64,000 nucleotides of DNA. Origin: Rhodobacteraceae bacterium Alg231-30. Lineage in GTDB: Bacteria; Pseudomonadota; Alphaproteobacteria; Rhodobacterales; Rhodobacteraceae. The position numbers and the translations under genes were made by a program. The stretch spans positions 62,001 to 126,000 of the forward strand of contig FREU01000004.1 in NCBI GenBank assembly GCA_900143615.1, read 5' to 3'. This document shows, piece by piece, positions 29,710-32,132 of this stretch (its first letter is position 1; every line of letters starts with the position of its first letter). Below the pieces are notes generated by a model. It did no database searches. It had not been told where the DNA came from and saw only the letters and a list, made by a program, of their open reading frames with translations.

Positions 29710-30615
29710 CTAGATTGTTTGCCCAGCCTTGAGAGGAAAGCCCCTCAGAAAGACATCTGCATCCTGCGCGCCTTTGCCAGCGCGTTGCAAGCGTAGAAGC
29801 TGCACAGCCCCCGATCCGCAGGCAATGGTGAGCGCATCATCCAGAAATGTGCCAGCAGTGCCCTCAGCCGGAACAAGACGCGAGGCTAGGATTTTCACAC
29901 GCTGCCCGTCGATTTCCGTATAGGCTCCGGGAAAAGGCGACAGGCCACGAATTTTGCGATCAACCTCAACTGCGGACGCGGTCCAATCGATGCGCGCCTC
30001 TGCCTTATCGATCTTTTCGGCATAGGTCACGCCGCCCTCGGGTTGAGGTTCTGGCGTTAATGTCTCAAGTTTGGACAGGGTCTCGACGATGGCCGCGCTG
30101 CCAATTTCAGAGAGGCGGTCATGTAGCTGCGCCGTGGTTTCCTGCGCCCCAATCGGGGTCGCGGCCCGCAGCAAAACAGCACCCGTATCAAGCCCCGCGT
30201 CCATCTGCATAATACACACGCCGGTTTCAGCATCCCCCGCCATGATCGCGCGATGGATGGGGGCGGCCCCGCGCCAGCGCGGCAGAAGGCTGGCGTGAAT
30301 GTTCAGACACCCTAGCTTTGGCGCGTCTAAAATAGCTTGGGGCAGGATCAGACCATAGGCGACAACAACCGCAACATCGGCGTAAAGTGCGGCGAACTCG
30401 GCCTGTGCAGCGTCGTTGCGCAAAGACACCGGATGGCGCACCTCAAGGCCCAGCGCGTCGGCCCGGGCATGCACCGGTGTAGGACGGTCTTTCTTGCCGC
30501 GCCCCGCAGGGCGGGGAGGCTGGCAATAGACCGCAGCAATTTCGTGGCCCGCATCGATCAGCGCGTCCAAAACCGACACGGAAAAGTCAGGTGTTCCCAT
30601 AAAGATAATGCGCAT
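29710..30615 (-). CDS. fmt: Methionyl-tRNA formyltransferase
   Basis: A 301-residue Fmt formylating initiator Met-tRNA with 10-formyl-THF. Motifs are [35 protein letters not shown] and [13 protein letters not shown]; a C-terminal OB-like domain follows ([20 protein letters not shown]). ATG 30615 with AGGA upstream is preferred over GTG 30618. It lies 13 nt downstream of three tandem deformylase genes, matching N-terminal formylation with deformylation. Confidence 0.96.
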
Positions 30616-30628
30616 CACGAGGTCCTTG

Positions 30629-31126
30629 TCAGTTGCGCAGCTTGCGCGCCTTTTTGATCAGCATGTCACGTTTGACCTTGCTGAGGTGGTCGAAATACAT
30701 CTTGCCATTGATGTGGTCGATCTGGTGCTGCACCGAGGTCGCCCAGAGCCCGACAAAGTCTTTCTCAACCGTCTCACCGTTCTCATCCATATAGCGCACC
30801 GTCACCGCACGAGGACGTTTGATCTTGGCGGACACCCCGACAAGATTGGGACTGGCTTCGTCATGCTCGCGCGGCTGTACCGAGGCATGCAGCACCACCG
30901 GATTGGCCAGACGGATCACCTGATCGCCCTCCTCGGAGGCATCCACCACGCAGAGCCGCAGCATCTCGCCAATTTGATTTGCACCCATACCCACGCCGGG
31001 CATGGCATACATGGTGTCGATCAGATCGGTCCAAATCTGGCGCACCTCGTCAGTGATCTCGGTGACGTCTTGTGCAGCGATGCGCAGGCGTTTGTCGGGC
31101 CATGGCAGGCAGGGGCGTACGGTCAT
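30629..31126 (-). CDS. Degenerate peptide deformylase paralogue
   Basis: A 165-residue member of the deformylase family with the active site altered. Motif I reads GVGMGANQ (44-51). Aligning on the downstream RP, the metal-binding Cys of EGCLS is replaced by Ser92 within DEASPNLVG. Motif III is HQIDH (134-138), so the catalytic Glu is Gln135. Both His ligands remain. It is probably inactive as a deformylase or has another role. The stretch is collinear and intact, not a decayed gene. It overlaps the next deformylase gene by 4 nt and precedes fmt. Confidence 0.85.
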
Positions 31127-31614
31127 GGGGCGGGGTATCCTTGCAATATCTCGGCGCGTTCTTCGCCGGAAAGATGATCCAACGTCACGCGACCATGCAG
31201 GTGGTCAATTTCGTGTTGAATACAGCGCGCGGCAAATCCGGAAAAATCCGCCTCTTGGATTTGGCCCTCCAGATTCCGCCAGCGCAGTGAAATTCGCTTG
31301 GGGCGTTCAACGGCCACCATCAAATCAGGGATCGACAGGCAGCCTTCCTCGGCGGTCTCCGTGGTTTCGCTGCGCGCAATGATGGCCGGATCTAGAAACA
31401 CCATCGGGTCCTTGTCTCCGTCTTTCCACGTGCAATCCATCACAAAGATCGCCTGCAATACACCAACCTGAGGTCCGGCCAATCCGCGACCGGGCGCGGC
31501 ATACATGGTGTCCAGCATATCACCAGCGAGCTGTTTCACATCTGCCAAACCAACCATCTCGCAGACCTGTGCCAATCGCGCGTCAGGCCACTGAACAATC
31601 GGCAGCACGCTCAT
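31123..31614 (-). CDS. def: Peptide deformylase, second paralogue
   Basis: A 163-residue deformylase with the metal site intact: Cys92 in EEGCLSIP and HEIDH at 134-138 with Glu135. Motif I is GRGLAGPQ (42-49), where the usual second Ala is Gly, a variant seen in alternative deformylases. It should remove formyl from nascent N-terminal Met, perhaps with shifted substrate range. It overlaps its neighbours on both sides by 4 nt. Confidence 0.9.
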   Translation of the reverse strand: MSVLPIVQWPDARLAQVCEMVGLADVKQLAGDMLDTMYAAPGRGLAGPQVGVLQAIFVMDCTWKDGDKDPMVFLDPAIIARSETTETAEEGCLSIPDLMVAVERPKRISLRWRNLEGQIQEADFSGFAARCIQHEIDHLHGRVTLDHLSGEERAEILQGYPAP

Positions 31615-32132
31615 CCGCGGGCCCGTTCGCGCTTCATTTTTTGCGACTTGCGCGTCATCATCTGACGCTTCATCGGCTTGAGATAATCGATGAACAGCTT
31701 GCCGTTGAGATGGTCGATCTCATGTTGCACACAGGTTGCCCAAAGCCCGTCAAAATCTTTCTCACGTGGGTTGCCATCCATGTCGATCCAGCCAACCCGC
31801 ACCGAAGCGGGGCGAGTCACATCGGCGAATTGTTCGGGAATGGACAGGCAGCCTTCTTCATAGACGTTCTCGTCATCTGAGCTGGACAGCACTTCGGGGT
31901 TGAACATCACCGTCGGCTCAGGCGTGCCCTCTTTGATGCAATCCATCACGATCAGCCGATTCAGCACGCCCACTTGTGGCGCGGCCAGACCGATGCCAGG
32001 CGCGTCATACATAGTTTCCAACATATCATCCGCCAATTTGCGCAATTCATCAGACAGATCAGTCACTGGCGCGCAGAGTTTTTTAAGGCGGGGGTCGGGG
32101 TGGATAAGAATAGGTTTGATCATGTCCTTCAT
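31611..32132 (-). CDS. def: Peptide deformylase, canonical copy
   Basis: A 173-residue deformylase with all three canonical motifs: GIGLAAPQ (46-53), EEGCLSIP (Cys95) and QHEIDHLNG (His137, Glu138, His141). It uses Fe2+ or similar metal to deformylate new proteins. The basic C-terminus (KPMKRQMMTRKSQKMKRER) may contact the ribosome. It is the first gene of the def-def-def-fmt operon on the minus strand. Confidence 0.96.
   Translation of the reverse strand: MKDMIKPILIHPDPRLKKLCAPVTDLSDELRKLADDMLETMYDAPGIGLAAPQVGVLNRLIVMDCIKEGTPEPTVMFNPEVLSSSDDENVYEEGCLSIPEQFADVTRPASVRVGWIDMDGNPREKDFDGLWATCVQHEIDHLNGKLFIDYLKPMKRQMMTRKSQKMKRERARG

Follow-up and report, generated by a model that had tools for sequence, protein, structure and literature searches.

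A conserved peptide deformylase paralogue with a substituted active site in the def–fmt gene cluster of Rhodobacteraceae

Removal of the formyl group from new proteins is near-universal in bacteria and is usually viewed as a single enzymatic step. Clustered peptide deformylase (PDF) genes are reported in 98.1% of Rhodobacterales reference species, 62.5% of these having three, an arrangement whose rationale is termed 'elusive' in the accessible text of that report (Lamberioux et al., 2025; PMC12690207). The motif II Cys and two His are the metal ligands of PDFs (PMC5591237), and the exchange E133A inactivates Bacillus subtilis DefA (PMC11194573). PDF binds L22 via its C-terminal helix in competition with MAP (PMC8712518), the contacts given for the Escherichia coli enzyme being L149, K150, R153 and K157 to uL22, and K160 and R163 to 23S rRNA (PMC12690207). 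Substituted conserved motifs are described for the type 3 PDFs of trypanosomatids, archaea and some bacteria, which are weakly active or inactive (PMC5591237, PMC12690207).

A cluster of the same kind as that reported for Rhodobacterales (PMC12690207) lies in the window analysed here, a stretch of 64 000 nucleotides from Rhodobacteraceae bacterium Alg231-30 (contig FREU01000004.1). Its features are as follows (all on the minus strand; residues numbered as in the window proteins unless E. coli is named).

31611..32132, minus strand: def1, canonical PDF, 173 amino acids (PF01327 match, E = 2.4e-36)
31123..31614, minus strand: def2, PDF paralogue, 163 amino acids (PF01327 match, E = 1.7e-47), with canonical Cys and Glu, Arg at E. 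coli Ile44 and no basic tail
30629..31126, minus strand: def3, non-canonical PDF paralogue, 165 amino acids (PF01327, 125.1 bits, E = 2.6e-51), member of a monophyletic clade
29710..30618 if the start is GTG, minus strand: fmt, methionyl-tRNA formyltransferase (TIGR00460, 281.6 bits, cut-off 201.5)
30974..30997, minus strand: Def3 motif I, GVGMGANQ (Gly44–Gln51), its Gln (E. coli Gln50) present in 137/137 Def3
30845..30859, minus strand: Def3 motif II, EASPN (Glu90–Asn94) in place of EGCLS, with Ser in 136/137 and Pro in 137/137
30851–30853 and 30848–30850, minus strand: codons of Def3 Ser92 and Pro93, respectively, inside motif II
30713..30727, minus strand: Def3 motif III, HQIDH (His134–His138) in place of HEIDH, with Gln and both His in 137/137
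30722–30724, minus strand: codon of Def3 Gln135, inside motif III
30632..30679, minus strand: Def3 basic C-terminal tail (residues 150–165), with Lys/Arg at E. coli positions 150, 157 and 160

The order is thus def1-def2-def3-fmt, with overlaps of 4 nt between def1 and def2 and between def2 and def3, and 10 nt from the def3 stop to the fmt start. A sequence-only reading had proposed three overlapping tandem PDF genes upstream of fmt, and the coordinates and PF01327 matches agree with it, as do the residues that it cited (Cys95 and HEIDH in Def1; GRGLAGPQ, Cys92 and HEIDH in Def2; Ser92 and HQIDH with Gln135 in Def3). The Pfam E-values exclude chance matches for all three genes, which were the only PDF genes found by a PF01327 search of the genome. 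Def3 covers positions 3–155 of the 156 in this profile (cut-off 22.8 bits) and also passes TIGR00079, the equivalog model for peptide deformylase (112.7 bits, cut-off 103.95), although its catalytic residues are gone, so that counts of PDF enzymes per genome are possibly inflated. It resembles type 1B PDFs (E. coli Def and Rhodobacteraceae Def1) in matching PF01327 over about its whole length and in having Gln50, both His and a basic tail, but differs from them by a fixed pattern in which Cys90, Leu91, Glu133 and Cys129 are replaced by Ser, Pro, Gln and Ser (E. coli numbering, used from here on unless stated).

The 478 PDF frames of the fetched loci gave 399 distinct proteins, of which five were dropped by length; the 394 kept (161 Def1, 80 Def2, 137 Def3 and 16 from other alphaproteobacteria) were compared together with E. 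coli Def. Def2 was defined by Arg at E. coli Ile44, a residue present in all 76 proteins that best matched the window Def2. Conservation of the substituted residues among Rhodobacteraceae homologues, proposed earlier as a check, was borne out: position 90 is Ser in 136 of the 137 Def3 proteins (Pro in the other, L195) and position 133 is Gln in all of them, Cys and Glu not being kept. Two further fixed active-site changes had been overlooked, Leu91 to Pro (137/137) and Cys129 to Ser (136/137). At other positions Def3 has Asn (127/137; Cys in nine, His in one) for Ser92, Met (137/137) for Glu41 and Trp (135/137) for Val31. Gln50, His132 and His136 are unchanged in 137/137, so that of the motif residues of active PDFs Def3 retains Gln50 while lacking the motif II Cys and the Glu of the motif III HExxH. 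Cys90, Leu91, His132, Glu133 and His136 are all present in 161/161 Def1. No Def3 protein (0/137) showed reversion of Cys, Leu or Glu, and no acidic residue replacing the Glu was found among the residues conserved in Def3. Eight of the 10 columns that are conserved but different between Def3 and Def1 lie in or beside motifs I–III in the sequence. Motif I itself varies among Def3 proteins (Leu46 in 95/137, Ala47 in 76/137), the GVGMGANQ of the window being a less canonical form. In PDFs the Leu91 backbone NH and Gln50 have an oxyanion role, and neighbouring residues contribute to the S1' pocket. 'Degenerate', as Def3 had been called, is the wrong word for a site whose altered residues hardly vary. 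An alignment artefact at motif II was considered and rejected, since EASPNLP aligns to EGCLSIP ungapped and 119/137 Def3 have at most one Cys. The whole protein is cysteine-poor, with 0–1 Cys in these 119, against at least three in 160/161 Def1 (mostly three to four), a composition that could render Def3 insensitive to thiol oxidation.

Selection on the three paralogues was compared using codon models (MG2K+F3X4). In 59 genomes of the family holding all three, omega was 0.095 for Def3, 0.097 for Def1 and 0.15 for Def2; the within-genus values were 0.066 (19 genomes), 0.062 (19) and 0.14 (13), respectively, and the within-genus medians from pairwise counting 0.074, 0.062 and 0.173. As dS exceeds 1, absolute values are rough and the comparison between paralogues is what counts. 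Purifying selection on Def3 (omega 0.066–0.095), which a dN/dS test had been expected to reveal, is hence the same as on the canonical Def1 and, together with the Ser and Gln fixed in homologues, upholds the earlier suggestion that selection has kept the catalytically altered copy. Def3 thus combines lost catalytic residues with purifying selection, as would be expected of a pseudoenzyme.

With non-Ser tips excluded, the Def3 gene tree implies 13 switches of the Ser90 codon between AGY and TCN, and an independent Def1+Fmt tree implies 12; for Ser129 the numbers are 26 and 27, respectively, although tree errors can inflate such counts. Residue changes numbered one each at Ser90 and Ser129, the mean being 16.3 per site over 153 ungapped sites. 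Codon changes that left the residue unaltered were counted at Pro91 (54), Gln133 (8), His132 (41) and His136 (35). Since AGY and TCN are not interconvertible by a single base change, serine at positions 90 and 129 of Def3 looks required rather than just tolerated.

Constraint on the catalytic cleft was assessed in 75 genomes with all three paralogues by comparing the mean entropy of 36 positions, taken as lining the cleft on the basis of PDF structure, with that of the rest of the core. The cleft was the more conserved part in Def1 (0.20 vs 0.94), Def3 (0.43 vs 0.97; p = 1.1e-5) and Def2 (0.80 vs 1.68). The Def3 cleft is therefore more constrained than its surroundings, yet less so than that of Def1 (0.43 vs 0.20). 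A relaxed cleft would be expected of a mere scaffold; that of Def3 is constrained instead.

Past the last conserved Leu, the C-terminal tail has a median of 22 residues and net charge +8 in Def1 (155/161 fitted the pattern), 17 residues and +6 in Def3 (137/137) and 16 residues and −1 in Def2 (53/80). Among the ribosome-contact positions of the E. coli enzyme, Def3 has Lys or Arg at 150 (137/137), 157 (137/137) and 160 (136/137); position 153 is usually occupied by Met in the two paralogues with a basic tail, Def1 and Def3; most Def3 lack Arg163, a contact to the rRNA, and Def2 conserves none of these positions. With the basic tail and three contact positions kept, putative ribosome binding by Def3 gains indirect support among the functions offered earlier. 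The conserved tail also sets Def3 apart from type 3 PDFs, whose C-termini are described as not conserved in length (PMC5591237).

Out of 295 Rhodobacteraceae genomes (294 genera) surveyed, 287 matched Def3 at E ≤ 0.001 and the other eight were set aside. Def3 was present in 248/287 as judged by best E-value, the weakest-scoring loci being confirmed by sequence and the sequence being read for fetched loci only. Two more genomes contain a fragment (L067, L072), and in one (L062) the contig stops short of the site. In the other 36 of the 287 genomes having a PDF match the search yielded no Def3, which is thus dispensable somewhere; of the 24 of these checked at locus sequence, 21 have Def1 only and three Def1 and Def2. 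All 18 same-genus genomes examined contain it (74–87% identity), and the closest named loci to the window Def3 are mostly from Shimia (75–86%), which makes a Shimia relative the probable source of the window; Phaeobacter and Ruegeria species also have Def3. A profile search of 385 genomes of the class gave best matches of 268–333 bits in the five from the family and no Def3-like score in the 380 others (maximum 168.8 bits); the margin is small, the most divergent verified Def3 (G034) scoring 182.7 bits. Cys and Glu are present in each of the 16 PDFs read from other alphaproteobacteria, and occurrence of Def3 outside the family was rejected on these scores and sequences, within that small margin.

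Def3 forms a monophyletic clade (SH 0.999) whose MRCA contains only the 137 Def3, with an aLRT of 100 in a set thinned to 24 per group. In trees built without type 3 sequences, Def1, Def2 and Def3 together form one clade against the 16 alphaproteobacterial PDFs and E. coli Def (aLRT 93.6); Def3 thus groups with the Def1 and Def2 of its own family. On this sequence evidence, Def3 evidently arose from a duplicated PDF. Parsimony on the Def1+Fmt tree of 188 family loci reconstructs Def3 as present at the root of the family and requires 15 gains or losses, the deep supports being weak (0.39–0.96), and Def3 accordingly looks ancestral in Rhodobacteraceae and repeatedly lost. In one genome (G253; loci L070/L208) Def3 is visibly degenerating, with motif I altered and Asp135 changed to Asn, possibly a loss in progress. 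A mobile origin was rejected: of 883 matching plasmid records one exceeded 60% identity, and all 106 phage records fell below it. The one plasmid match (68% to Def3) lies on a 1.58 Mb secondary replicon of Pseudorhodobacter turbinis (NZ_CP039965.1:1086133-1086612), a record with three PDF places. A Rhodobacteraceae def cluster was also seen in a record titled Nocardioides marinus DP1N28-1 (JAHVJD010000009.1; L156), beside Leisingera loci in tree tip order, and this record is probably misnamed or a contaminated assembly.

The 80 named loci were picked by Def3 and so all contain it: 42 have Def1, Def2 and Def3, 37 have Def1 and Def3, and one (L115) has Def2 and Def3 with a split Def1. Def2 and Def3 overlap by 4 nt in 42 of the 43 named loci with def2, and where def2 is missing the Def1–Def3 spacing ranges from −4 to 93 nt. 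The fmt gene follows downstream on the same strand in 74/80 named loci, within 233 nt in 68 of these; six loci (L127, L128, L133, L137, L150 and L163; five Salipiger and one Citreicella) have the def cluster with no fmt inside the fetched stretch. In the genus, whose genomes were chosen independently of Def3, Def1 and Def3 occur in 19/19 and Def2 in 13/19, the broken-looking copy being better kept than Def2. A full Def1 accompanies Def3 at 164/166 loci (some genomes fetched twice), the exceptions (L115, L204) being draft assemblies with Def1 split or run-on, and Def3 is therefore no replacement for Def1.

Taken together, we tentatively favour the reading that Def3 is an ancient, selected pseudo-deformylase that would dock on the ribosome, where its rebuilt pocket may bind formylated nascent ends or pace deformylation. 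The sequences show a duplicated PDF that exchanged its metal-binding Cys for Ser, Leu91 for Pro, the catalytic Glu for Gln and a second pocket Cys for Ser; purifying selection has since preserved these states as strongly as it has the canonical paralogue, and the basic tail was kept. Such a protein would be without deformylase activity and might dock at the tunnel exit via its tail, like E. coli PDF on uL22, while its pocket, which retains Gln50, the two His and a large part of the S1' site, would hold an N-formyl-Met end or related ligand without hydrolysis. Def3 could in this way pace or gate formyl removal by Def1 as well as the access that methionine aminopeptidase has to the chain, and its probable role at the ribosome is to deal with new protein ends otherwise than by cutting. 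Points against this reading are a tail shorter than that of Def1, mostly without Arg163 and, as in Def1, with Met for Arg153, a cleft less conserved than that of Def1 and the 36 genomes in which Def3 did not turn up. Strict selection for Ser, beyond 'not Cys', could equally signal a new catalytic use. It is conceivable, if rather doubtful, that Def3 is devoted to recognizing formylated nascent N-termini as they leave the ribosome, or acts on them as an enzyme of a new kind, through a rebuilt and nearly thiol-free site (Ser90, Pro91, Gln133, His132, His136 and Ser129). Were it so, Rhodobacteraceae would have divided deformylation among three proteins: Def1 would cut while bound to the ribosome, Def2, its pocket altered, would cut unbound, and Def3 would be bound without cutting and would decide which proteins retain formyl-Met or the timing of its removal.

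Of the other explanations, new chemistry is unlikely but, as Ser looks required, a serious rival: Ser92, Pro93, Gln135 and the two His (window numbering) would form a rebuilt site, with a metal bound without thiolate or a Ser/His-dependent reaction, whose substrates would be N-terminal groups, nascent or free. Where Def1 has its two Cys, Def3 has kept Ser through many codon-class switches, both His and Gln50 are invariant, and the shortage of Cys and the concentration of differing conserved columns in or near motifs I–III fit as well; Def3 has however lost the general base along with the backbone NH of Leu91, the residues conserved in it include no new acidic one for the Glu, and it was not found in 36/287 genomes. 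A regulatory partner of Def1 or Def2, acting off the ribosome as a heterodimer or metal chaperone, would suit the almost constant presence of a full-length Def1 and the 4-nt def2/def3 overlap, which suggests coupled translation. We consider it improbable, given that the invariant residues cluster in the cleft and that the tail has been retained; moreover, Def2 is no obligate partner, being absent in 6/19 genus genomes (all with Def3) and in 37/80 of the Def3-picked named loci, and Def1 from 134 Def3-bearing and 24 Def3-less loci differs only in scattered ways, uninformative as to co-adaptation.

Three explanations have still less in their favour. Def3 might moonlight in stress regulation by acting on an unrelated target, as B. 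subtilis DefA does on the kinase PtkA: the inactive E133A DefA still protects from peroxide, so that a regulatory role outlasts loss of the Glu133 equivalent (PMC11194573), and Def3, having lost thiols and the Cys ligand, could be insensitive to oxidation. DefA is an active enzyme, whereas in Def3 the loss is fixed. Linkage to def1 and fmt (def and fmt being the neighbours considered) and the ribosome-type tail point to translation, however, which makes this explanation quite improbable. We regard as equally improbable a weak or conditional deformylase, for which speak the kept fold family and His ligands and the existence of active PDFs with altered motifs, including type 3 of Trypanosoma brucei, other cofactors having been suggested under oxidative stress (PMC12690207); against it, Cys, Leu and Glu changed together with no reversion in 137 proteins, and Def3 occurs without a full Def1 at just two of 166 loci, both in draft assemblies. 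A strain lesion, sequencing error or decaying pseudogene would match the degenerating copy in G253 and the two fragments, but it is next to inconceivable for the window Def3, and lesion or neutral decay was rejected in view of fixation across the family, an omega equal to that of Def1 and a Ser kept through codon switches.

The cluster itself is already published, but the accessible text of that report does not state an invariant Ser/Pro/Gln paralogue, its ribosome-type tail or the loss of the tail in Def2 (PMC12690207). We found no description of a Rhodobacteraceae PDF with Ser/Pro/Gln, and no Tn-seq result for def3, in listings and abstract openings of the open-access literature, and the paralogue is thus apparently undescribed there. 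The Rhodobacteraceae comprise the marine roseobacters and their relatives, and most of those examined keep Def3 beside a normal deformylase. If the pseudo-deformylase reading holds, deformylation would be a regulated step in one major marine group, in which selection keeps a non-catalytic paralogue with a ribosome-type tail across a whole family; this would also help to account for the published, unexplained gene cluster.

Def2, with Arg at E. coli Ile44 in its GRGLA-type motif and an omega of about 0.14–0.15, lacks the basic tail and for that reason may be active off the ribosome on other formyl-peptides. One Def2 (L048:1004–1501) lacks the Cys of motif II (EENALS) as well as the Glu and first His of motif III (QQVMDH), so that catalytic residues have been lost a second time within the def cluster, and in another (L130) the motif scan found none of the motifs. 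Position 97 (Arg in E. coli) has been linked to weaker actinonin binding in Vibrio cholerae (PMC12690207); Def1 has Tyr (107) or Phe (54) there in all 161 proteins, and the other alphaproteobacterial PDFs have Tyr or Phe in 15/16 and Trp in 1/16.
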